Assembly: GCF_018873765.1 (NCBI RefSeq)
Contig: NC_057918.1
Span: forward strand, 12,160,862 to 12,224,861
Direction: 5' to 3'
DNA length: 64,000 nucleotides
Origin: Telopea speciosissima
Taxonomy: Eukaryota; Streptophyta; Magnoliopsida; Proteales; Proteaceae
The notes under the pieces are model-generated. The model searched no databases. It was not told where the DNA came from and worked only from the letters and a program-made list of their open reading frames with translations. This document shows positions 39,639 through 58,907 of the stretch, piece after piece (within the stretch, counting starts at the first letter, position 1; each line of letters begins with the position of its first letter). Made by a program: the position numbers and the translations under genes.

Positions 39639-40576
39639 TTAATTTCCCCCGAGTGTTTGGACAATTGTGTTGTGCCATGGGTCAGAGAGGTGCTGTAGGA
39701 GGTTATCGAAGGGTCCTTTCCCAGTCACATTGTGTTGAACAATGAAACCCAAGAATGCAAGCATTGCCAACCTCCCTGCAAAAGAACCACACATAGATAG
39801 ATTAGCTTAGTTTCAGGAATTTTTGAACCCTTTGGGTTCTGGTTATCTGAGAGCATAAACAGACTAAGTTACCATTGGCAAGCTCCTTCTCCTTGGCCTC
39901 TTCAGTTGGTGCAAAATTAAGGGGGTTGAAGATCCCACCAGGGTATCCAACCTCATTGGGAGGCAAGCTGTAGTTCTTGAAGATGGGATCTTGGTTAACA
40001 CTTCCAGGGTTCTTAATATCTTGCCACCTTCTGATCTCCACGTAGTGGAACAAGATGAACTCAATCACAAAGAGGGTGGATGAAGAAGCAAAGTATTCAG
40101 CTTTCCCTGCGTCATACCATTTTGGAACATTGATGATACCGATCGTCGTGAAGACTTCTGGCAGCAGCATCCCTGCTACACCCAACATAGCCCACCTGCT
40201 GTTAACAAGCTCTGCCTGAACAAACCATTTCAAGTTCTCAGGGTCCTCTGCAAGTCCAAGAGGATCAAATCCATTGTCACCAGGGAGGCTGTATTCAATA
40301 TCAACAATTACTTGTTAGACGTATGAAATCATATGATACATATCATAATACAATAATAAATCTATGAATTTACCTGCCATTGAGATACCCTGGAGAGGCC
40401 AAACCCGGCAACCACTCACCCTTGGCTTCAATCTTGAACGAATTTGGAGCCGATGAAGCAGCTTTTCGGACAGAGAATCCTCTGGTAAGTTTGCCAGAAG
40501 ACCCAGACAGGAACTTCGATTTCGATTTGCATGGCCGGAGACCTGCCAGAGAAGCCTGTGTTGTGACGGTTGCCAT
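39639..40576 (-). CDS. LHCA4: Chlorophyll a/b-binding protein of photosystem I, LHCA4 type
   Basis: Three exons on the minus strand: 40576-40374, 40288-39873 and 39775-39639. Their borders are GT-AG, and they join to 251 codons plus stop, the usual Lhca4 length. The first 45-50 residues are a plastid transit peptide rich in Ser, Arg and Lys. The mature part starts near [16 protein letters not shown]. Helix B has [20 protein letters not shown], the middle helix has [20 protein letters not shown], and the last helix has [20 protein letters not shown]. The paired ExxNxR motifs bind chlorophyll and lock the helices. Asn near residue 97 replaces the usual His ligand of chlorophyll 603, a mark of the far-red-absorbing Lhca3/Lhca4. 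The protein pairs with Lhca1 on the PSI antenna in thylakoids. It looks intact. Confidence 0.96.
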
Positions 40577-41379
40577 TGTTTTCCCACCTGAATTCAGAAA
40601 TTTGGATCTCCAAGTTTGGTTGACTCTACTAACTCAGTATCCTTTTTGTATTTGTTCAGTGATAATCTTGTGGCCTAAATTCATTGTTGAAGACCAACGG
40701 TTGGATTGAGATATCCGTGGGAGTCCAACGGTTAAGATTCAGTGATGGGGTTATGCCAACCAATGGGGAGCTCTCGCTCCTTATCATTAACTTTATCTCG
40801 GTGCCACTCTGCCATATCCACAAATCTCTTTCTTTGTTGCTGTTGGTCAAATAAAAATCTTGTGGGGTCACACGCTTACTGGCACGAAGGCAGATTCTTT
40901 TCCCAACCGTCCAATATTTTTCTGACAGATGGCTGGATTATTCTTTTTCAAAATCCTGCTCGTCTATCGACCATCGATGCTCCTTCAAGTGGGTGAGGGA
41001 AAACTCGGTACTTTGTGAGGAAGCCGTCTAGGATAGCTGCCTAAATGGGCTCTAATTTTGGACCCATTTCTCTAATGATGAGAGCCCATATTGTGTAAGC
41101 ATACGGCCCAATTTGGTAACAGAAGGGGTTCGTTGGGTTTGCAATAGTTGTGGGATTTACTCGTTGGGTTGGTTCCGCAGTCAGTCAGGTTGTTTTTTAA
41201 CTAACCCAAAAAAAAAAAAAAAATGTTTTTAATATGCGTTCTTCGAATAGATTTTAGATCTAGAATGCATTCTGTGTAACTTGATTCTTCTTTATTTTCT
41301 CGCTTCAAAATGCATTTTAGACCCAAAATCTATTCTGAAAAATCATACCAAACACAGCTTTAGACATAATTTGTTTTCA
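40452..41379. repeat. Duplicated block, copy 1 (LHCA4 exon 1 and promoter)
   Basis: Most of LHCA4 exon 1 and about 800 bp of upstream DNA recur at 50814-51804 in the same orientation, about 10.4 kb away. The match is broken by small indels, and in copy 2 by one MITE. Confidence 0.88.
40577..40900 (-). promoter_or_regulatory. LHCA4 promoter region
   Basis: Upstream of the LHCA4 ATG on the minus strand. Light-gene elements are visible: an I-box core GATAAG near 40780-40785 (plus-strand CTTATC), a related GATAAAG near 40791-40797, and a CCAAT box at 40760-40764. No clear TATA box. The same sequence recurs around 50941-51240, where the I-box-like words are mostly kept. The elements are assigned from known cab-gene promoters, not tested. 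Confidence 0.45.
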
Positions 41380-42548
41380 ATCCCAACAACCGCATGTAGT
41401 TATAGCCAGCGGAGCTCATCACAGGACTAACAACCACCCACCATTGACAATGCCAACGGATGTCACGATGAGACAGGTCATTCAGCCAATCAGCCTACTC
41501 CAGAGCTCATAAATATTCACAATGGTGGTGCGTAACACCCTAGTGTGGCACGGAATTTAATGATTTTCAGATTCTCCACGGGGATTGATCAATCAATTGG
41601 TCTGAGTTCGAGTCATGTTACAGTCTGAAGAAGGAAGTAGGCACCCTAGTTTGCCCAGTCAAGCCGGTCTTCCTATTGCTTGGCTAAACTAAGTATAAGT
41701 GTATAACATACACAGAAATAAAACTATAGCACAATAAAAAATAAAGTACAAGAAGAAAAATAGATTTTGTGGGACATACTTTGATGTTTGGCTACAAGAG
41801 AAGGATTAATATACATGAAAGTAAAATAAAAGAAGAGTTGAGAAAAACATACCTAAAGTGTTTGGACCCAAGTGTGCCCCCTATGAAATGACCATACCAT
41901 TCCCCTGTTTTTGGCTGTTTTTGTGCTAGGCTGGACCCTCCAGCTCCAGCCATGCCTGGAGGACAGCAAGATCCTTTCATGTAGAGCGATATATACCTAG
42001 CCCAGCACACCAAGGAATCACCTCCGACCAAAATGGTGAGGAGATTGAGAGGGGAGGGTACGTACGTACGTGGGGTGGGTTCAATACTTGAAACGGTTCT
42101 TTGGTGCCTTCACAAAGGGATAAGTTTTACAAGATAGTACTTGAGAAAAAAAGAAGAAGAAGAAGGATAGGAAATGAACCAGAAAGAGAAGAGAAGATCA
42201 CATGAATGAGCTAAGCTATCCTTTAAAGATAGGATACTAAAAGTGATATTTTACTAGACAATAACTTGGGATAACCAAAGTACATGCAACACTAAACCTA
42301 CAACTTAAAACAGAAGAACCCACGTACAAGCTAGAGATCAAATCCTTTAACAAACAAACAAACAAATTAACTTACTGCATGCATGCTTACAACTTGAAGA
42401 GGGAGTTGTTGGGTAAAAGATGTGGAACAACAAACTTACAATAGAGATAGAATATCCCAAACACAACTGAAAATCAAACATTTTATCAAACCACGTAAAA
42501 CTGCCTGTAAGGTCATCATGTTTGAATTTTGGTCCATATAATGCCATG
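41380..42548. other. Intergenic DNA
   Basis: No gene recognised. It holds a short ACGT repeat near 42060-42071, purine-rich runs near 42150-42170, and a CAAA repeat near 42352-42365. The frame at 41792-42031 has no domain. It ends at the stop codon of the antisense BURP copy. Confidence 0.4.
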
Positions 42549-43431
42549 CTAATTCATCCAATGACAAACCTCTATCAGTCCTGGGCCAAAACCCAAGAGC
42601 TTAAAAGCAATATGGTTTCTATTCCATGCTGAAGTATCGAAATGGCAAGCCATAATTGCACGATTAACCTTCTCCCCAACAACATGTATATCGACTGTGT
42701 AGATTTTAACTTTGGAGAGTACATGACAATAGTAGACCTGGAAATAGAAATGTGTGGTATGACAAATGGCAGGTGGCTCGGAGAGGTTCCCATGTACGAG
42801 TGTCATAGCTCCAATCATAACATTTTGGTACGATCCTACCACATTATCCGTGCTCCAGTGTTCCAGATGGTGCCCAAATCTGTAGACAACAAAGTCTACC
42901 AAGTTTTCAAATGAAGTGGCACATGTGTATTCTTCTTCCCCATCAATGGGGCCTCTGTCACACATCTTCAATGTCTCTGGGATATACTCTTTTAGGTGTC
43001 CTCGTTCTACCACACAAACAACTTCTTTAATTCCTCAATGTCCCCATAGGAAAATGGGATTTTTGCTGCTAAGGGCCGGGCTAAAAATGAGGTATAGGGC
43101 ATGGGATTCCTTAGATCAGGGAGAAGGATAGAACTTCCCACTTGCACCATGGATTCTCGATATATAGTATGGGAGTCCCCCTTGGTATTCAACCGATCTA
43201 GCAGGCACTCCCCCGTCATACTATACTCTGTCAAGAATCCATACGACTATTGGTGGCAAGGCTGTCGAGTACATAGCCTCCTTCTTCGACAAGAAATTTG
43301 TAGAGCACGCTATGTTTGCCTGTTTACAAAAGTTAGTGGGGAAGCCTTCTTCCATGTTGTACATTTCTGTATCAACAGGAGTCAGCGGGGAAGCCTTTTT
43401 GGCCAACCAAGCAGGAGGGTTTGGAAGACCA
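42549..43431 (-). pseudogene. BURP-domain (PG1beta-like) pseudogene copy 1
   Basis: Near-complete exon 2 of a BURP gene of the polygalacturonase non-catalytic beta-subunit type, read on the minus strand. It starts GLPNPPAWLAKKASPLTP next to LTR A. It runs through NFCKQANIACS and ESMVQVGSSILLPDL, and ends with the BURP signature CH-X10-CH-X25-CH-X25-CH followed by WMN and a stop. PG1beta-type BURP proteins are secreted cell-wall proteins. There is a stop after WILDRV, a frameshift before RESMVQ, and another near 43010 (KLFV to VERG), so it cannot make a full protein. The four CH pairs are all kept. No signal peptide or exon 1 is attached; the LTR begins where they should be. Confidence 0.9.
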
Positions 43432-43942
43432 TGTAGGATATTTTTTATATTTTAATGTAAATAATAATCCGCCCCTATTTTGTTGGCTCATTGACCAAGT
43501 CACATAGACGTTGTTCAATGTTTCTCATTGGATGTCATCTCTCCTATATTTGAGGTGGTTATGGACTAATCACTAATGGGATACTCCCTTGTAAATTCTA
43601 GTAGTTAGGGAGGCTAGAAATTATCTATAAAATAAAGAGATAAGGTCCCCTCTCTATAACATAAGGAGATAAGGTCCCCTCTCTATCACACATTCACATA
43701 TTGTCATTGTGTCGTGAGCATACGGATAAAGTGAAGAGAGAGAAACCAGTCTCCATCCAGTGACGATAATCGTTATTGTAGCAGACTCGCAATAGGACAT
43801 TAATGGCTTCATTAACGTCATTTGCAGGAATTAACGACTACATGGTGAACGGTATGCATTGTTCTCATATATTTATTATTTTGTGATTCAAGCATACTAG
43901 ACTAGATCTATTTGTGTGATAAAAGGGAATGAATTCCCTACA
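43432..43942 (+). repeat. LTR A of the BURP-carrying element
   Basis: 511 bp with inverted ends TGTAGGATA and TTCCCTACA. A primer-binding site TGGTATTAGAGCC follows at 43945. It is closely related to LTR B at 44379 and to the partial LTRs at 45904 and 47099. The 5' flank is the antisense BURP codons Gly-Leu-Pro, the same flank as LTR B. Confidence 0.85.
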
Positions 43943-44097
43943 CTTGGTATTAGAGCCATAGTTGTGTCTTTTGTGTTCTTGAATTACATATGCATAGTCA
44001 TGATAATTATTGCATCTGACCATTCTCGATTATGTTTATTTGGTAAAGAAAGTTTGTTATGCGTTGTCCTGTTCATAGTTGGGATTTTCCTTTTGAA
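43943..44097 (+). other. Leader with primer-binding site, unit 1
   Basis: About 155 bp between LTR A and the captured BURP piece. It begins with the Met-tRNA-type primer-binding site and contains the words TGCATCTGACCATTCTCGAT and TTGGTAAAGAAAG, which recur after every other LTR of the array. Confidence 0.75.
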
Positions 44098-44378
44098 CCA
44101 TGGATTCTCGGAAGTATGGGAGTCCCCCTTGGTATTCAACCGATCCAGCAGGCACTCCCCCATCATACTTTACTTTGTCAAGAGTCGATGCGGCTATTGG
44201 TAGCAAGCCTGTCAAGTACATAGCCTCCTTCTTCACCAAGGAATTTGTAGAGCACGCTATGTTTGCGTATTTACAAAAGTCAGCTGGAAAGCCTTCTTCT
44301 ACATTGTACATTTCTGTCTCAATAGGGGTCAGTGGGGAAGCCTTTTCGGCCAATCAAACAGGAGGGTTTGGAAGACCA
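44098..44378 (-). pseudogene. BURP gene piece copy 2, between LTRs A and B
   Basis: Antisense to the LTRs. The frame codes for the part from GLPNPP through KASPLTPIETEMYNVEEGFP, CKYANIACS and YDGGVPAGSVEYQGGLPYF to ESMVQ, about 95 codons. The only stop is at the Trp of the GLPNPP(V)W motif. In PG1beta proteins this is the region just before the BURP domain. It stops abruptly at ESMVQ, where the leader begins, and at GLP, where LTR B begins. With LTRs A and B it makes a 1.43-kb LTR-flanked unit (43432-44865) whose interior is about two thirds gene DNA. Confidence 0.85.
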
Positions 44379-44865
44379 TGTAGGATATTTTTTATATTTT
44401 AATATAAATAATAATCCTCCCCTATTTTGTTGGCCCATTGACCAAGTCACATAAACGTTGCACAACCTTTATGCAACGTTTCTCATTGGATTCTATCTCT
44501 ACTATATTTGAGGTGGTTGTGGACTAATAAGATACTCCCCCTATAATTTTTAGTCTCATGGGTGGTTAGAAATTATCTATAAAATAAGGAGATAAGGTCC
44601 CCTCTCTACCATACATTCACATATTCCCATTGTGTTGTGAACATACAGATAAAGTGAAGAGAGAGAAACTAGTCTCCATCAAGTGACGATAATTGTTACA
44701 GTAGCAGACTCGTAATAGGACATTAATGGTTTCATCAACGTCGTCTACGAGAATCAACGACTACATGGTGAATGATATGCATTATTCCTATATATTTATT
44801 ATTTTGTGATTCAAGCATGCTAGACTAGATCTGTTTGTGTGATAAAAAGGAATAAATTTCCTACA
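44379..44865 (+). repeat. LTR B of the BURP-carrying element
   Basis: 487 bp, starts TGTAGGATA and ends TTTCCTACA. A primer-binding-like TGGTAGTAGAGCC follows. It has several small deletions relative to LTR A. Confidence 0.85.
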
Positions 44866-45903
44866 CTTGGTAGTAGAGCCATGGTTATGTCTTATGTGTT
44901 CCTGAATTACATTATGACTGGTCAGTATAATTGTTGCATCTGACCATTCTCGATTATACTTATTTGGTAAATAAAGTTTTTCACCATTTTATTTGACTGT
45001 CCATTTGTAAGTTTTTACCATTTCGACACTTCTGCAAGTTGAAATGGCAGGTCATGATTGCACGATTGATGGATATCCACCGTGTAGATTTTTACTTTGG
45101 GCAAAGAAATGACAGTAATAGACTTGAAAATAAAATGGTGCTATATGACAAATTGCATGGGGCTCGGAGAGGTTCCCAACCAGTGTCATGGCTCCAATCC
45201 TAACATTTTCGAAGGATCCCATGACATTTTGGTTGGTCAAAGGTTCCACATAGTGCCCAAATTTGTAGACAATCTACCAAGTCTTCAAACAAGATGGGAC
45301 ATGTGGAAACTTCTTCCCCTCCAATGGGCCCTCTCTCTCGCACATCTCTAGTGTCTTTGGGATATATTCATTTAGGTGTCCTTTGTCACTTCTCCAAGAT
45401 ATATAGTCGATAATCACCGAGGAACCCCACATGGATTCCTGAAAGAATGTTACATACACAGAGCTTAATCCGTGGGTGGGTGACAGTTGTTTGGCACAAG
45501 ATGCAGGCCCGGAAGATGGCTGCTATAGGGGAGGCCGTAGAAGATCTGAATCCGTGAGTGGGTGACAGTTGTTTAGCACAAGGCACAAACTACTCTCACT
45601 CACTCACTCTCTCTCAACCCCATCCCTTTAATTAGTATATATTAGTGAACTCATGGTCTCTATCTATCAATTCTCTTTCCATCTTCCTCCGCCTTATCGT
45701 TTTTCTATCCTCCTCCTCTGCTCATCGTTCGTGATGCATCCTTTCAGCGTAATACTAGTTGCACTATTTGTGCTTAGGGTAAGAGAATGAATCCGTTTTA
45801 TGTCTGTCTGTACTATCTGTCTGTCGTTCTTTTAATTTTATTTTTATTTACTTATTATTTCTTCAATTTTCAGGTGTCCCAAGCGGATGAAAATGCCGTT
45901 ACT
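44866..45903 (+). mobile_element. Chimeric internal unit 1 (leader, antisense BURP, sense exon 1)
   Basis: The order is primer-binding site and leader (44866-45034), antisense BURP domain half (about 45035-45430, with ICHIAPFYFQVYYCH and the EYIPKTLEMCE block), an unassigned stretch with a doubled word (AATCCGTGGGTGGGTGACAG near 45466 and again near 45547), then a sense copy of the 5' part of a PG1beta-like gene: CTCA-rich leader, exon 1 at 45734-45778 (MHPFSVILVALFVLR, a signal peptide), an intron with GT-AG ends, and the first 11 codons of exon 2 (45874-45906). The gene text then breaks into LTR sequence. Stops in the BURP half rule out a protein. Confidence 0.82.
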
Positions 45904-46099
45904 CAGTCTCCATCAAGTGACGATAATCATTACAGTAGCAAACTCGTAATAGGACATTAATAGCTTCATCAACGTCGTTTGTGGGGATCAACGACTACAT
46001 GGTGAATGATATGCATTGTTCCTATATATTTATTATTTTGTGATTCAAGCATGTTAGACTAGATCTGTTTGTGTGATAGAAGGGAATGAATTTCCTACA
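45904..46099 (+). repeat. Partial LTR, copy 3
   Basis: Only the last 196 bp of the LTR. It begins at a CAGT shared by exon 2 (ACTCAGTATTGG in the intact arrangement) and by the LTR (ACCAGTCTCC in LTR A). The primer-binding site TGGTATCAGAGTC follows at 46102. Confidence 0.85.
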
Positions 46100-47098
46100 C
46101 TTGGTATCAGAGTCATGGTTATGTCTTATGTGTTCCTGAATTACATTATGATTGGTCATTATAATTGTTGCATCTGGCCATTCTCGATTATGTTTATTTG
46201 ATAAATAAAGTTTTTTGCCATTTTATTTAACCGTCCGTTTGTAAGTTTTTACCATTTCGACACTTTTGCATGTCGAAATGGCAGGTCATGATTACGCGAT
46301 TGATGGATATCCACCGTGTAGATTTTTAATTTGGGCAAAGACATGACAGTAATAGACTTGAAAATAAAATGGTGCCATATGACAAATTGCATGGGGCTCG
46401 AAGAGGTTCCCAACCAGTGTCATGGCTCCAATCCTAACGTTTTCGAAGGATCCCATGACATTTTCAGTGGTCAAAGGTTCCACATAGTGCCCAAATTTGT
46501 AGACAGTCTACCAAGTTTCAAAGGAGATGGGACATGTGGAAACTTCTTCCCCTCCAATGGGCCCTCTCTCTCGCATATCTCCAGTGTTTTTGGGATATAT
46601 TCATTTAGGTGTCCTTCGTCACTTCTCCAAGATATATAGTCGATAATCACCGAGGAACCCCACACGGATTTCTGGCAGAATGTTACATACACAGAGCTTA
46701 ATCCGTGAGTGGGTGACAGTTGTTTGGCATAAGATGCAGGCCCGAAAGATGGCTGCTATAGGAGAGGCCGTAGAAAATCTGAATCCGTGGGTGGGTGGGA
46801 GTTGTTTGGCACAAGGCACAAACTACTCTCACTCACTCACTCTCTCTCAACCCCATCCCTTTAGTTAGTATATATTAGTGAACTCACGGTCTCTATCTAT
46901 CAATTCTCTTTCCATCCTCCTCCTCTTGCTCATCGTTCGTGATGCATCCTTTCAGCGTAATACTAGTTGCACTATTTGTGCTTAGGGTAAGAGAATGAAT
47001 CCATTTTATGTCTGTCTGTTATTCTTTTAATTTTAATTTTATTTACTTATTATTTCTTCAATTTTCAGGTGTCTCAAGCGGATGAAAATGCCGTCACT
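46100..47098 (+). mobile_element. Chimeric internal unit 2
   Basis: Same order as unit 1: leader, antisense BURP half (about 46262-46640), then sense CTCA-rich leader, exon 1 (46942-46986), intron, and 11 codons of exon 2 (47069-47101). The distance between the two partial LTRs is 1195 bp, so units 1 and 2 are tandem copies. Both are still clearly similar, with scattered substitutions. Confidence 0.82.
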
Positions 47099-47294
47099 CA
47101 GTCTCTATCAAGTGACGATAATCGTTACAGTAACAAATTCGTAATAGGACATTAATGGCTTCATCAACGTCGTCTGTGGGGATCAACGACTACATGGTGA
47201 ACGATATGCATTGTTCTTATATATTTATTATTTTGTGATTCAAGTATGCTAGACTAGATCTATTTGTGTGATAGAAGGGAATGAATTTCCTACA
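47099..47294 (+). repeat. Partial LTR, copy 4
   Basis: Same 196-bp LTR end as copy 3, with the same CAGT junction to exon 2. It is followed by a mutated primer-binding site (CTAGGTATCAGAGCC). Confidence 0.85.
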
Positions 47295-47578
47295 CTAGGT
47301 ATCAGAGCCATGGTTATGTCTTATGTGTTCCTGAATTACATTATGATTGGTCATTATAATTGTTGCATCTGATCATTCTCGATTATGTTTATTTGGTAAA
47401 TAAAGTTTTTTAACATTTTATTTGACCGTCCGTTTGAAAGTTTTTACCATTTCGACACTTCTGCATGTCGAAATGGTAGGTCATGATTGCGCGATTGATG
47501 GATATCTACCGTGTAGATTTTTAATTTAGGCAAAGACATGACAATAATAGACTTGAAAATAAAATGGTGTCATATGAC
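47295..47578 (+). mobile_element. Third, cut-short internal unit
   Basis: Leader and the beginning of the antisense BURP half match units 1 and 2 until about 47578. There the sequence switches without transition to LINE-derived DNA. This is the right edge of the tandem array. Confidence 0.75.
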
Positions 47579-47769
47579 AAAGGTCCCATAGAGGATAAAG
47601 CGTTCGAAACCTCCTCCATAGATGGACTGGCACATAGAATCTCATTAACATCGTTCGACAACGTTAACTTAACCCAAGCTAGGGCCTCATGCATGGCAGT
47701 CATATCTAATCCTTTCGAAGACACGACTTCACTAAAATTGTTCAAGATCTCCTCAAATACCTCTATTTC
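47579..47769 (-). pseudogene. LINE reverse-transcriptase scrap
   Basis: On the minus strand the text MHEALAWVKLTLSNDVNEIL and MEEVSNALSSMGPL matches the region of plant LINE reverse transcriptase just before the KAPGPDG motif. It lies between the BURP array and the next LTR element, with no tail or duplication visible. Confidence 0.55.
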
Positions 47770-47770
47770 T

Positions 47771-49012
47771 ATTACGTGCAATATTATTTGGCTAGGGTAG
47801 TTATATATATATATATACTTATTTTATTGGTGTTATATAATTATTGTTTCAAGTAGTTTTAAATATTGGGTTAGGAGTTATCAAGGTTAAGTTGTGAGGA
47901 ACAGTTATTAGTAAGTGGTAGGAGTTATTACAGAAGTGGGTTACTTAATTGTATGGGTAGTTATCCTTAGGTTGTTTCCTATTTAAATGCAAATAAACGT
48001 AATGAAAGGCAGAATGAATTATCCAAAATTTATCTCTAGATTTATCTTGAGAAGAGGATTGGCGACCTCCCAATTATGCCGTGACGCCAGGCTTCGTCTG
48101 TAAAGCCAAATCCTATTTTCTCTCTCTCTTCCTATTATTTCTCTCTTTTTTTAAAATATATTTTCTCTTTAGTTTATCCGTGCATCTAACAACTTGGTAT
48201 CAGAGTCGGTTATGGATCAAAGGATAGCAAGGTTGGAGAGAGATGTTCATGTACTCCAAGAAGACAACAATTCATTTTATCCAAGTTGGACGGTCAACAA
48301 CAAATTCTATCCAAGCTTACTGAGTTGTTCGAGAGATTGAATCCTCAACCTTCCAATACCAAGTTCGTGGTCGACATAAATTCGGAGCTGAATATAACCA
48401 ATGAACGACGTCTTCAATGGGTTGAAGCTCAAATTAATACTGTAACGGCTAGCCACAAGTAGATGTATAAGCAAATGTAAGTACTTCAACTCTACGATAC
48501 GATGTTCGACTACCAACAACCCTTGGAAGAGCATTTTGTTAATCATAAGGGCTATGGGTGCCTTGCTAAAAATGGAGGTTATGAAGAACTTTCGAATGCT
48601 GCATTCAATAGTTTCACGGGCAAATGGGAGCAAACTTATAAATTATTTGGCATATCAATTCTATATGATCTTAGTTTTAACAAGGATTGTAAAGATAGAG
48701 CCTCCAAGTTTTGACCTTGAGGACAAGGTCTAATTTTAAGGGAGGAGTTGTTACGTGCAATATTATTCAGCTAGGGTAGTGTTATATATATATTGAATAT
48801 TTAATTATTAATTATTTTATTGATGTTATGTAATTATTATTTTAAATAGTTTTAAGTATTTGATTGAGAGTTATCAACGTTAAGTTGTGGGAAGTAGTTA
48901 TTAGTAAGTAGTAGGAGTTATTATGGAAATGGGTTACTTAGACGTATGGATAGTTATCCTTAAGTTGTTTCTTATTTAAATACAAGTAAACGTAATGAAA
49001 GGTAGAATGACG
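47771..49012 (+). mobile_element. Deleted LTR retrotransposon
   Basis: The 5' LTR (about 47771-48191) is followed by a primer-binding site TGGTATCAGAGTC at 48195. The internal part is only about 555 bp. It starts with a gag-like MDQRIARLERDVHVLQED and ends with a polypurine stretch AAGGGAGGAGT. The 3' LTR begins TGTTACGTGCAATATT at 48749 and matches the 5' LTR until 49012, where it stops early. Almost all of gag-pol is missing. The end PPSFDLEDKV just before the polypurine tract recalls Ty3-type pol ends. Confidence 0.8.
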
Positions 49013-50813: not shown

Positions 50814-51804
50814 GATGAAGCAGCTTTGCGGATGGAGAATCCTCTGGTAAGTTTGCCAGAAAACCCAGACAACAGGAACTTCAATTTCGACTTGCATGGC
50901 CGGAGCCTGCCAGAGAAGCTTACGTTGTGACGGTTGCCATTGTTTTCCGATCTGAATTGAGAAATTTGGATCTCCAAGTTTGGTAGTGACTCTAACTCAG
51001 TATCCTTTTTGTATTTGTTCAGTGATAATCTTGTGGCCTAAATTCATTGTTAAAGACCAACGGTTGGATTGAGATACCCGTGAGAGGGTTGAGATTCAGT
51101 GATGGGGTTATGTCAACCCATGGGGAGCTCTCGCTCCTTATCCTTAACTTATCACGGTGCAACTCTTGCCATATCCACAAATCTCTTTCTTTGTTGCTGT
51201 TTTGTTGGTCAAATAAAAATCTTGTGGGTCACACGCTTATTGACACGTAGGCAGATTATTTTCCCAACCGTCCAATACTTTTCTGACAGATGGCTGGATC
51301 CTGGATGGTGGTTTTCAAAATTGAGTTTGGATCTGCTACCCACATGGGGGCGGGTGGGAACAGATCTGAACGCCCCAGTGGAGGGTTCAGATCTGTTCCC
51401 ACCCGTCCCCATGTGGGTAGCTGATCCGAATTCTTCAAAATTCTGCTCGTCCATCGACCATCGAAGCTCCTTCAAGTGTGTGAAGGAAAACTCGGTTCTA
51501 GCTGCCTAAATGGGCTCTAATTTTGGACCCCTTTCTCTAATGATGAGAGCCCATATTGTGTCAGCATGCGGCCCAATTTGGTGGCAGAAGGGGTTCGTTG
51601 GGTTTCCAATGGTTGTGGGCTTTACTTGTGGGTTCCGTAGTCACTTAGGTTGTGTTTGGTTTGCATTATTCGAATAGATTTTGGATCTACAATGCATTCT
51701 GTAACTTGATTCTTCTCTATTTTCTCACTTCAGAATGCATTTTAAACCCAAAATGTATTTTGAGAATACATACCAAGTACCAGCCTTAGACATGATTTGT
51801 TTCA
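50814..51804 (-). pseudogene. LHCA4 exon 1 and promoter duplicate, copy 2
   Basis: Matches 40452-41379. The start codon (50938-50940, minus strand) and the first six codons MATVTT are kept, but codon 7 is a TAA stop where LHCA4 has Gln. A 1-bp loss soon after shifts the frame, and the copy ends before the exon 1 splice site, so no protein can be made. The promoter half is well preserved and carries a MITE (51323-51433) that the true gene lacks. It could still drive transcription of whatever lies downstream on the minus strand, but no gene is joined to it. Confidence 0.88.
51323..51433. mobile_element. MULE-type foldback MITE in the duplicated promoter
   Basis: 111 bp, almost a perfect hairpin: left GAGTTTGGATCTGCTACCCA, right TGGGTAGCTGATCCGAATTC. 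The 9-bp duplication TTCAAAATT is perfect (51314-51322 and 51434-51442). It is absent from the matching place near 40942, so it came in after the duplication. Confidence 0.92.
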
Positions 51805-52271: not shown

Positions 52272-52734
52272 CTTTCGATTGTCTACATGCTCGAGATTGG
52301 GATTCTTAGAGAAGATTGTGTCCAGGGAATGGTGTCAAATTATGTAATATATCTTGACCCATACCAATTGTGCTTTGTACAAATTAGTAGTTTTCACTGT
52401 GACCCACAATACTGGGATATAGATATTAGTGGCTGTGGAGTGACGGAAAACTATCCTCTCCAATTTCTAAAGCTCGGCATGGCAGTGTGGTAGTGCTAGA
52501 TGGAGATCGATGCCAACATGTGTCGCTCAGACATACACGTGGCACCATTTTCCGCCATTCACACATCTGATCTCAAAACAAGCTCCACAGCTCAAGCCAT
52601 TGTTGAAGAGGGTAGTGCTCAAAGCTGCAGTGTTTGTCCCATACCCCTGGATGTACAGGTTTCCATAGCCACAAGCCCCACCTACAAGAAGGGAAAAGAG
52701 AGAGAGACAATTGTCAAATGGGCATTTCATAAAA

Positions 52735-53659
52735 GGGGCAATTACTATCACTACCCTACACTTAACCTATATTTACTAAAACTATCCTACCTTAAACTTA
52801 TTTTTTGAAACTATCCTGCTTTTAAACTTTTACATCTTCTTCTATCCTCATATTTTTAAATACCCAGATTACCCTTCCTTTTCACCTAGTAACCTGCTAA
52901 TCTATTTAACCTACCATTCTTCTTCTATTTTTTATTATTTTTATCATTAAAATTGTAAAAAATGAAAGCATCTATCCGCTTCTTCTCTCTCTCGTTTTTT
53001 ACTCCATTCGTTTTTCCTTCAATTTTTCTATTTAATTAATTTTTTAAAGAGAGTCGATCTGTTCCATGGTTTTAGTACACGCTATCAGAACGGGTTTCGA
53101 TAACCTGCAAAACCGATATGATATTGATATGGAATTGGCCTAGATCGGTTGTATTGGACAAAATTACTCCTGGATCTCCTTAAAAATTATTTTTTTGAGT
53201 ATTTTACCCCATGTTCGTACCGTGCTATCGATACGGTATCGACATTGTATTGGTGACCAGGAAAACCAGTACGTATTGCCCGATACGATACAGATACTTA
53301 GAACCATGATTTGTTCGAAGAAGTACGATGAGGATGAAATGTTGAATAAAAAATTAATTAAATAAAAAAATTGAAGGACAAAAAAAACGGAGTAAAAAAT
53401 GAGAGAAAGAAGAAACGGGTGGGTGCTTTCAATTTTTACTATTTTAATAATAAAAATAGTAAAAAATAGAAGAAGAATGGTAAGTTAAATAGTTTAACAG
53501 ATTACTGGGTGAAAAGGAAAGACAATCTGGATATTTAAAAACATGAGGGTAGAAGGAGATGTAAAAGTTTAAAGCAGGATAATTTTAGAAAAGAAGTTTA
53601 AGATAAGATAGTTTTAATAAATATAGACTTAAGTATAGGATAGTGATAGTAATTGTCCC
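52735..53659. mobile_element. Long-inverted-repeat MULE-type element in the expansin intron
   Basis: Starts GGGGCAATTACTATCACTA and ends TAGTGATAGTAATTGTCCC. The perfect 9-bp duplication TTCATAAAA lies at 52726-52734 and 53660-53668. The two arms of about 300 bp are inverted copies, with mismatches. Between them lies another MITE (53065-53308). No transposase is seen. Confidence 0.9.
53065..53308. mobile_element. MITE with CATGGTTTTAG ends, copy 2, nested
   Basis: Starts CATGGTTTTAGTACACG and ends ACTTAGAACCATG. It is a relative of 31562-31789. It sits in the loop of the 925-bp MULE-type element, with TGTTC on both sides as a possible short duplication. Confidence 0.7.
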
Positions 53660-53889
53660 TTCATAAAAATGCAAAGACTTAGGCCGGTTCATAGAGAACA
53701 AATTAAAAAAAGAAAAGAAAGAAGTAATTTCACATTTTCACGAACAAAACGTACCCATCGTCCCAGATGCAATCACCCCCTCCATAGAAGGTGGTGGCAT
53801 GAGCATTAATCCACCCTCCTCCTCCATTCCCCATAAGCATGTGACAGCAATGAAAAAAAACCCACCAAGAAAAACCCCAGAGAAGCCAT

Positions 53890-56275: not shown

Positions 56276-57238
56276 TGCTGTATTTTTTTTTTTTGTTTTA
56301 AATATCCTTTTTGGCTAACGCAAACACACTCACACTCTCACATGTCTTTCTCAAACTCTTTCTCCTCACATCAACTCAGTTACCATATTTATGCATTTGC
56401 CCTTGAAAGCCCTCATCAGAACTGCGAATCTGATTCAATGAGAAACAACCCAAATGTAATTTAGCATCCATAGTAGTTCCAGACTCCATAGATAACCTGG
56501 TTTTCTACTTACCTATTTGCATCTTCGACCCCACCTTCACTGGGGGGGCTCTGTTTTGTTTTGGTGTGTAGTGTGACAATTTATCGAACACGTGATAGGC
56601 ATCAAAACCTGAAAAGAGTAATCCCACTCCCAGTGACGTAGCTTCTCAGCTTTAGCTTTTCACCTGCATGTGGACTCATCTATAAATGAGGAAGCATTCA
56701 GTTTCATGTAAGGACCCGTAACTAACATCTAAATCTTATAAAAGCTAGATGGATACCGAACAAAAAACAATACCTAAAACCATGGGACCAATGCATTGGA
56801 AGAGTTAGGTTTGATAGTGTGTCACGTGAAAGTAGTGGTAGAGAAGAAGGCAACCTAGCTAGCTAGCTAAGTGAAGAACCAGCTTCCTATGTATGTTTGA
56901 CATGACAAGGCCAAGACAATGAAGACAACACCAGATGAAGTCTAATTTTGCAAGTTGCAGACTAGATTACTTGGTTCACACAAACAGCCAATCTCATTTT
57001 CCTTTTGCAGTAGAACCCAAATAAAGTGATGGAATACAAATTTAGAATGAATTGATCTCTATTGATTCTGATTCGATTTCAATTTGGATCATTTCAAATT
57101 TGGTGATAAGGTTTCCCCATCACCAACTTGACTAGTACCTAATACTACTCTTCTCCCATACGAATGGTTCCTCAACAAATAAAACAAAGAGGTGTCGTTG
57201 CTTGCTGCTTATCTCTGTATTCCTTGGTGGGTTCCAAT
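56276..57238. other. Intergenic DNA upstream of the BURP copy
   Basis: No gene recognised. Its right edge (GGCACAAGGCACAAACC, near 57244) is the start of the 5' region shared with the exon 1 copies at 45.6 and 46.8 kb. Confidence 0.4.
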
Positions 57239-57398
57239 TAATTTGGCACAAGGCACAAACCACTCTCACTCACTCACTCACTCACTCTCTCTCTCTCAAC
57301 CCCACCCCTTTAGTTAGTATATATTAGTGAGCTCTATCAAATCTCTTTCCATCCTCCTCATCGTTTTTCTATCCTCCTCCTCCTACTCATCGTTCGTA

Positions 57399-57766
57399 CT
57401 GCATCCTTTCAGTGTAATACTAGTTGCACTATTTGTTCTTAGGGTAAGAGAATGAATCCATTTTATGTCTGTCTGTCGTTCTTTTAATTTTATTTTTTAT
57501 TTACTTATTATTTCTTCAATTTTTAGGTGTCCCAAGCGGATGAAAATGCCGTCACTCAGTATTGGGAGATCAAGATTGGTCTCCCAAAGCCTCCTGTTTG
57601 GTTAGTTTTAAAGGCTTCACCATTGACCCCTCTAGAAGCAAAATTCTACGACGTAAAAGAGGGGTTCCCAGCACAATTTTGCAAGCGGGCAAAAATAGCC
57701 TGTTCAAAAAATTCGCTTACCGGCGTGGGGGAAGCAAACGCATGGCCTCTGGGTTTCTCTAGCTAG
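57399..57766 (+). pseudogene. PG1beta-like BURP gene, exons 1 and 2 (5' part)
   Basis: Exon 1 is at 57399-57443 and would code for a 15-residue signal peptide, but its start codon is CTG where the copies at 45734 and 46942 have ATG. An 83-bp GT-AG intron follows. Exon 2 (57527 on) reads VSQADENAVTQYWEIKIGLP, then KPPVWLVLKASPLTPLEAKF and FPAQFCKRAKIACS, the N-terminal YW..LPKP..KASPL..FC signature of polygalacturonase beta-subunit BURP proteins. The frame ends at a stop near 57764. The BURP domain follows inside the palindrome at 57773-58880. This is the most complete gene order of the family in the window, yet it is dead. Confidence 0.88.
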
Positions 57767-57772
57767 AAGTCA

Positions 57773-58880
57773 CACTACAGAAACAGCGTGGGGGGAGTGC
57801 CTTCTGGATCCCTTAAATACGAGTTATTTCAAGAATCAATGGTAGAAGTGGGAGGTTCTATCTTTCTTCCTGACTTAAGCATTCCGATGCCCAATATATC
57901 GTTTTTATCCCGAGCCTTGGTATGAAAATTTTCATTTTCTTTGGCAGAGCCTGCACAGCATTAATGTCTTTGGTTGAAGAAGCAGACTTGTCTGAAAATA
58001 TACCAAAGACATTAAAACTGTGCAAAAGAGGCCCCGCCCGCTGAAGGGGAATCAGCGTCCATCTGTGCAACCTCCTTTGAAGACCTCGTGGACGTCATTC
58101 TACCGATTTGGAAAGCATGTGCAAGTGTTTAGCACTAAAAATGTCTTTGGATCCATACAAAACGTGACTATTGGACCCATGTCATTCGTACATGGTAATG
58201 TCTCCCAGCCGCCTACTATATGTCATCCACCTCCCTTTTACTTTCAGATCTACTACTGGCATTCACTATCAAAAGTGAAAATCTTCACGGTGGATTTACA
58301 TATTTCTGTTCGTGACGAGATACAAACTTAAAAACTTCACCCCAGAAATATGTAAATCCACCGTGAAGATTTTCACTTTTGGTAGTGAATGATAGTAGTA
58401 GACCCGAAAGTAAAAGGGAAGTGGATGACACATGGTGGCTGGGAGTGATTACCATGCACGAGTGACATGGCTCCAATAGTCACATTTTTGCATGGATCCA
58501 AAGTCATTTTCAGTGTTGAACACTTGTACATGCTTTCCAAATCGGTAGACAATGAAGTCCATGAGGTCTTTAAAGGAGGTTGCAGAGGTGGACGTTCCCC
58601 TTCAGCGGGCGGGGTCTCTTTTGCACAGCTTTAATGTCTTTGGTATATTTTCAGAGAGGTGTGTTTCTTCAATCAAAGACATTAAAGCTTTGCAAAAGAG
58701 GCTATGCCAAGGAAAATGAGATTTTTCGTGCCAACGCTCAGGGTAAAAACGATATATTGGGCATCGAAATGCTTAAGTCAAAAAGAAGGATAGAACCTCC
58801 CACTTCTACCATCGATTCTCGAAAGTACTCTTATTTAAGGGATCCAGAAGGCACTCCCCCCACGCCGTTTCTGTACAGTG
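57773..58880. repeat. Large palindrome of BURP-domain sequence
   Basis: The left arm (57773-58307) and right arm (58343-58880) are inverted copies with scattered mismatches and small indels. The spacer is about 35 bp. The left arm reads in sense as the linker and first half of the BURP domain (FQESMVEVGGSIFLPDL, CATSFEDLVD, and a broken CH-CH region), ending at the VDLHIS text before the third CH pair. The right arm is the same in antisense. Each arm also contains an inner inverted word, AATGTCTTTGG against CCAAAGACATT. Stops and shifts are present in both arms. A transcript through it would fold into a long hairpin. Confidence 0.9.
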
Positions 58881-58907
58881 AATTGTAGATTCCTCTGTTT
58901 AAGTTAA

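Follow-up and report, generated by a model that had tools for sequence, protein, structure and literature searches.

Insertion, decay and tandem duplication as the probable origin of an array of long terminal repeats and BURP gene pieces in Telopea speciosissima

Introduction

In a stretch of 64,000 nucleotides of the Telopea speciosissima genome (contig NC_057918.1, positions 12,160,862 to 12,224,861; the whole stretch is called the window below), long terminal repeats (LTRs) of a retroelement alternate with pieces of a gene for a BURP-domain protein. How did such an array arise? A preliminary description of this DNA had proposed that a short non-autonomous LTR element captured a BURP gene and then multiplied in tandem; as an alternative, it had named the insertion of a retroelement in a BURP gene, followed by shuffling of the locus. 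The sequence comparisons reported here make it very probable that the array is a decayed locus, in which ordinary genome decay broke up a long-dead retroelement lying within a BURP gene, while tandem copying multiplied its remains along with pieces of neighbouring BURP genes.

Probable insertion site of the LTR

The left part of the array contains two complete LTRs, each of them preceded by BURP exon sequence in the opposite orientation:

42517-43431, minus strand: BURP pseudogene 1, with exon 2 kept from roughly codon 16 as far as the C-terminus, its 5' side cut by LTR1
43432-43942, plus strand: LTR1, 511 bp, ends TGTAGG...CCTACA
43943-44059, plus strand: primer-binding site (TGGTATTAGAGCC) and leader 1
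44085-44378, minus strand: second copy of the N-terminal part of BURP exon 2 (BURP-N), tandem duplicate of 43142-43431
44379-44865, plus strand: LTR2, 487 bp, ends TGTAGG...CCTACA
44866-44982, plus strand: primer-binding site and leader 2

Pseudogene 1 gave a tblastn match at 43430-42528 on the minus strand (49% identity, query residues 16-320, E 4e-88) and a match to the Pfam BURP domain PF03181 (42552-43034, minus strand, E 4.5e-38), within which one TAG is found. For BURP-N, the tblastn match was located at 44377-44090, also on the minus strand. These pieces are presumably PG1beta-like. The outer end of pseudogene 1 was placed at 42516-42529 across five alignments (42517 by eye), which is approximately the natural 3' end of the gene. 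The array itself was confirmed, but its left edge does not lie at 42549, since the BURP similarity runs on to this outer end.

At LTR1 and at LTR2, BURP exon 2 is unbroken up to the last base before the TG of the LTR; in plus orientation, it ends with ...GGAGGGTTTGGAAGACCA, immediately followed by this TG. The sequence across this site (GACCA/AT), GGAAGACCAAT, is kept exactly in four of the five intact paralogs, and the fifth carries GGAAGGCCAAT, with one change; around the site, the intact paralogs read GGAGGGTGTGGAAGACCAATATG and similar. Because exon 2 abuts the LTR and four of five intact paralogs are continuous through the site, the most likely event is an insertion of the LTR within a BURP copy of antisense orientation, GACCA being the duplicated target, whose left side is seen. 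A right-hand counterpart of GACCA was not found in the window.

In the case of gene capture, a short LTR element would have taken antisense BURP DNA between its leader and its 3' LTR, moved to this locus and multiplied as a tandem LTR array. The order LTR, leader, antisense BURP, LTR is seen once (43432-44865), and the BURP DNA ahead of the LTR is purine-rich. However, a polypurine tract would normally stand between a captured segment and the 3' LTR. No such tract distinct from the BURP exon was present before an array LTR, where exon bases directly adjoin the LTR, and the BURP sequence before LTR1 reaches approximately the gene's own 3' end.

Repeated segments and their divergence

A second segment, which runs from mid-LTR through leader, BURP-C, sense promoter, exon 1 and intron to exon 2, occurs about 2.5 times in tandem:

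44977-45023, plus strand: dispersed-repeat piece, 47 bp, between leader and BURP
45036-45388, minus strand: BURP-C piece 1 (domain part), most likely of a paralog other than pseudogene 1; tblastn 45387-45018
45389-45544, plus strand: short repeat fragments linking BURP-C to the sense promoter
45545-45904, plus strand: sense BURP promoter, exon 1 (45734-45778), intron (95 bp) and start of exon 2 (31 bp, 45874-45904)
45905-46099, plus strand: LTR3, 3' part only (last 195 bp), joined to BURP exon 2 with AGT common at the junction
46100-46268, plus strand: primer-binding site, leader 3 and repeat piece
46269-46620, minus strand: BURP-C piece 2; tblastn 46620-46252
46778-47099, plus strand: second sense promoter, exon 1 (46942-46986), intron (82 bp) and start of exon 2 (47069-47099)
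47100-47294, plus strand: LTR4, 3' part only (last 195 bp)
47295-47463, plus strand: primer-binding site, leader 4 and repeat piece
47464-47581, minus strand: BURP-C piece 3, truncated, at the end of the array; tblastn stub 47582-47447

All four LTR copies are followed by CT and then by a primer site of the Met-tRNA (methionine transfer RNA) type. When compared with 13 letters complementary to what we take to be the 3' end of Met-tRNA, these sites showed 1, 2, 1 and 1 mismatches for LTR1 to LTR4, respectively. The corresponding pattern has 13 matches in the genome, and the two that were fetched were both identified as tRNA-Met(CAT) by ARAGORN. With their TG...CA ends, their dispersed relatives and the primer site beside the LTR, the LTR pieces have these three traits of an LTR retrotransposon. 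None of the four is a terminal 3' LTR, a primer site adjoining each, and leader and host DNA lie between them, without the alternation with an element internal region that characterizes a tandem LTR-retrotransposon array. The repeats are far above chance (E 0.0 for the main pairs). The preliminary description had thus rendered the composition of the array correctly: four complete or partial LTRs with Met-tRNA-type primer sites (1-2 mismatches in 13) alternate with BURP pieces (tblastn, PF03181), which are antisense, and a sense promoter, exon 1 and intron are found in two units (45545-45904 and 46778-47099).

The switch from exon 2 (ACTCAG) to mid-LTR (TCTCCATC) is abrupt, AGT being common to both parents. 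As it occurs at the identical position in both units, it would represent the junction of the second tandem duplication.

For the first duplication (BURP exon 2, LTR and leader, ~0.95 kb), the Kimura two-parameter distances (K2P) were 0.127 for BURP-N, 0.140 for the LTR and 0.142 for the leader, and thus even throughout. Along the second one (~1.2 kb), the values were roughly even, with the promoter piece (0.052) and BURP-C (0.055) lowest, the joining segment at 0.066, the leaders at 0.062-0.097 and the LTR parts at 0.060-0.102. Owing to this evenness along both segments, the two ranges (0.127-0.142 and 0.052-0.102) date the duplicated segments and not an element. The earlier claim that joined LTR-BURP units multiplied in tandem is borne out by these repeats and their divergence.

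BURP-C differs from pseudogene 1 by a divergence (K) of 0.233 (62 of 311 sites); the two BURP-N copies differ at 33 of 286 sites and LTR1 from LTR2 at 60 of 476 (Fisher p 0.005 and 0.006, respectively). Since this value exceeds the divergence of the first duplication, BURP-C most likely comes from a different paralog, and the divergence of the paralogs most likely preceded that of the LTR copies (0.23 versus 0.14). The antisense pieces would then trace, most likely, to at least two pre-diverged paralogs, a point against gene capture. Together with the continuous exon at the LTR, the divergence of the paralogs supports the insertion in a BURP gene and subsequent shuffling that had been named as the alternative.

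The 47-bp repeat piece stands between leader and BURP behind LTR2, LTR3 and LTR4. It has 89-96% matches on many contigs and is related to a repeat of ~300-420 bp common to L068-L070. Such a scrap of another repeat is not favourable to capture and is a further sign, at the sequence level, of piecemeal genomic joining. The linking fragments hold a repeat at 82-bp spacing (45460-45500 and 45542-45582). When the leader/BURP-C joint was used as a query, the only full-length matches among the best 40 of 94 candidates scored were the two complete units of the array; the remaining matches corresponded to the third unit (to position 213), to parts of pseudogene 1 and other BURP copies, and to repeat scraps.

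Complex tandem repeats are readily misassembled, and a false tandem duplication or misjoined haplotypes could in principle produce a pattern of this kind. This origin is barely credible here: the array copies differ by 5-13%, which is judged well above the levels of haplotypes or errors, and the two units have one common junction with different later changes.

LTR and BURP copies elsewhere in the genome

A genome search with the LTR yielded 44 matches. Four lie in the window; among the 40 outside, some are paired fragments of a single copy, and the highest-scoring one was 81% identical. The outside matches extend at most ~51 bp beyond the LTR end, and 5-bp target duplications were seen by eye at 3 of 13 outside placements. 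No BURP match with E <1 was found beside 26 of the 40 outside matches (~1.5 kb on each side) or in 12 longer stretches, which are partly the same places. The BURP-N query had two matches genome-wide, both inside the array. The LTR family therefore exists without BURP, and among the examined matches there is no BURP-carrying member. The preliminary description had looked to whether the LTR is ever found away from BURP genes; it is, an outcome that equally fits a simple insertion. In view of an LTR that abuts an exon continuous in the paralogs, of the at least two pre-diverged paralogs and of these searches, the capture of a BURP gene by a mobile element is very improbable.

The closest outside LTR copies, L056 and L057 (C11:3.415-3.434 Mb), are 8.4 kb apart in a local duplication, with pieces 91-96% identical. 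Each consists of an LTR with a primer site, without an open reading frame of >=130 amino acids within 2.4 kb behind it; both stretches together, considered in regard to an autonomous partner element, contain three frames of this size. BURP homology beside these two copies was considered in a low-threshold search and rejected, the best E value (0.046, in a small search) being taken as chance.

Sense pieces and a second BURP locus

The sense pieces have a relative at the following locus of the window:

57214-57762, plus strand: second BURP locus with promoter, exon 1 (57399-57443), intron and exon 2
57763-58888, no strand assigned: BURP palindrome with two arms of ~550 bp, 86-87% identical, with almost no loop

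The sense pieces are 81-84% identical (gaps counted) to 57214-57560, so that their closest relative lies in the window but outside the limits formerly given for the array. With promoter, exon 1 and intron as a query, a single long match was found beyond the two units (57214-57558 of the window, same orientation) among the best 40 of 61 candidates, 37 of these 40 being of at most 71 bp. As K is 0.077-0.115 between the array promoter pieces and the second locus and 0.38 for the BURP bodies, the sense and antisense pieces come from different BURP genes. The first codon of exon 1 is CTG at the second locus and ATG in the array units. A retrotransposed (spliced) BURP copy was rejected on the presence of a promoter and an intron, which also speaks against gene capture.

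At 45734-46000 and 46942-47180, predicted splice sites and an in-frame sequence of 43 amino acids fuse a BURP signal-peptide-like exon to LTR-derived sequence. When the two units are compared (codons by eye), the BURP part of this frame differs by 2 silent changes, the LTR-derived part by 4 replacements. Selection on it was considered and discarded, since these 4 replacements leave the tail without sign of constraint.

By its promoter divergence (K 0.077-0.115), the second locus might be a direct continuation of the third array unit, but ~9.6 kb of other DNA lies between them and ~390 bp of the unit are missing. An older segmental duplication, which would include the 5' end of a chlorophyll-binding-protein gene described below, is an equal alternative.

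The 1.1-kb palindrome directly follows the BURP promoter, exon 1 and intron, and its arms have diverged by a K of 0.14. The predicted RNA fold of 57400-58888 has an energy of -935 kcal/mol, compared with -386 to -409 for five mononucleotide shuffles, and contains nine uninterrupted pairing runs of 24-49 bp (listing threshold 18). This makes the locus a candidate for a hairpin-RNA locus. Together with the array at a distance of 10 kb, the palindrome might then form a functional cluster, in which LTR and BURP promoters transcribe antisense BURP and hairpin RNA, and small RNAs restrain the BURP genes. The pairing runs behind a BURP promoter would suit such a role, as would array BURP bodies that are all antisense, and inverted-repeat loci in soybean are described as yielding small interfering RNAs (siRNAs) (PMC3534067). 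However, the longest exact stretch in common with the five paralogs tested, out of 98 BURP matches in the genome, is 18 nt, and the arms themselves are diverged. Trans-silencing of BURP genes was rejected on this 18-nt limit, silencing of the wider family appears unlikely from this small sample of five paralogs, and the functional cluster as a whole is highly unlikely.

Of the 98 genomic BURP-domain matches, 77 cover almost the entire domain, and 69 of the 77 lack a stop (our own count). They lie mostly in open frames of ~320-360 amino acids, on contigs C1 to C11. This is far above the published numbers considered: 125 genes in 15 genomes (PMC6102523), and counts of 18, 17 and 30 for cottons and of 17 for jujube. 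Pertinent literature on an expansion of the BURP family in Proteaceae was not found. It might be imagined that array and palindrome form a young anti-BURP RNA locus which, through antisense BURP transcripts and a 0.55-kb hairpin, polices an exceptionally enlarged family, the fused 43-residue frame being a by-product; we regard this model as a long shot. If the hairpin reading were true, the expansion of the BURP family would be linked to a self-made silencing locus. The palindrome locus and the 98 matches merit more attention.

Proposed origin of the array

The decay of an interrupted BURP locus can be described by the following scheme. First, an LTR retroelement would have inserted in exon 2 of an antisense BURP copy at the target GACCA, as the sequence of the left side supports. 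Deletions would then have removed the internal and 3' parts of the element. With a fragment of another repeat in between, the leader would have come to adjoin an antisense BURP paralog from the neighbourhood. This paralog would have stood head-to-head with a sense BURP gene, whose closest surviving relative would be the palindromic locus at 57.2-58.9 kb. The ~0.95-kb segment of BURP exon 2, LTR and leader would have been duplicated in tandem and, after these deletions and joining, the segment from mid-LTR to exon 2 brought to its ~2.5 tandem occurrences; both duplications are supported by the sequence. The whole process would have taken place in genomic DNA, by unequal exchange or by replication slippage, with no RNA intermediate carrying BURP sequence, and no function of the array would be required.

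Several points weigh against this scheme. The evidence for insertion is one-sided, as neither a 3' LTR nor a target duplication on the right is left, and the purine-rich BURP sequence before the LTR may serve as a stand-in polypurine tract; the bases before the LTR of L056 and L057 (TGGAAGCCA) are loosely similar to those of the array. The BURP check covered 26 of the 40 outside LTR matches, and five outside loci gave weak BURP hits (E 1.3-2.4), one upstream of the L056 LTR reaching E 0.046 in a smaller search; these hits are taken as chance. In the second duplication, the LTR parts are somewhat more diverged (LTR2 versus LTR3 0.084, versus LTR4 0.102, transitions only) than the BURP parts (0.055), and the Fisher tests set side by side stretches whose evolutionary rates may differ. 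Finally, the ancestral gene order is one that we infer, and the absence of homology between 41.4-42.5 kb and 51.8-57.2 kb gives no support for one large duplication linking the array with the second locus.

Neighbouring features

A chlorophyll a/b-binding gene (PF00504), presumably of the Lhca type, has its 5' end with the region upstream (40452-41376) duplicated 10 kb downstream at 50814-51802 (K 0.066 and 0.12). As this 5' end is present twice, local duplication also occurred otherwise here. At 47772-49010, a direct repeat of ~250 bp (83%) with a Met-type primer site at ~48195 (by eye) between its copies probably represents another, unrelated LTR element adjoining the array, and an inverted repeat with arms of ~315 bp, 87% identical, is found at 52733-53661.

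A Pfam scan of five other reading frames of the window gave one chlorophyll a/b-binding match and four frames without match, including BURP-N and the beginning of exon 2 at the second locus. When one intact paralog was compared with the sequences of the PDB, a single BURP-domain sequence was matched (example chain 8sy2_A), which has no bearing on the origin of the array.

Comparison with known systems

No literature was found in which gene capture by LTR retrotransposons is combined with transduplication and antisense gene fragments. Tandem LTR-retrotransposon arrays with shared internal LTRs are common in plants and are ascribed to single insertions (PMC11899658); their existence is in favour of capture followed by tandem multiplication. 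Like the present array, they show several LTRs of one family head-to-tail at one locus. Here, in contrast, host gene DNA is part of what is repeated, the joints are breakpoints in genomic DNA and a terminal 3' LTR is absent.

Capture itself is documented by gene transduction in maize Bs1, where host gene fragments likewise stand beside LTRs and a primer-binding site and the captured segments lie within the element (PMC13317346). The BURP DNA, with its promoter and intron, rather looks like the target and neighbour of the LTR, and no BURP-carrying mobile copy was found among the examined matches; the likeness to Bs1 thus looks superficial.

The palindrome at 57.8-58.9 kb, but not the array, has a parallel in inverted-repeat siRNA loci such as soybean CHS I and an aquaporin inverted repeat (PMC3534067), the common feature being an inverted repeat derived from a gene.

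The closest counterpart is a generally known process, the insertion of a retroelement in a gene cluster with unequal exchange, which leaves pseudogenes, repeat scraps and tandem duplicates of differing age, as here. As read from its sequence, the array is of an ordinary kind and goes back to an old insertion among BURP genes, to deletions and to tandem duplication in two rounds. It may serve as a worked example of how gene capture can be mimicked by LTR insertion with tandem duplication; such cases are betrayed by a target gene that continues right up to the LTR, by gene pieces of unequal divergence, and by a promoter and intron in the joined DNA. From insertion with unequal exchange the present array shows no essential difference, the alternation of two types of unit being merely elaborate.

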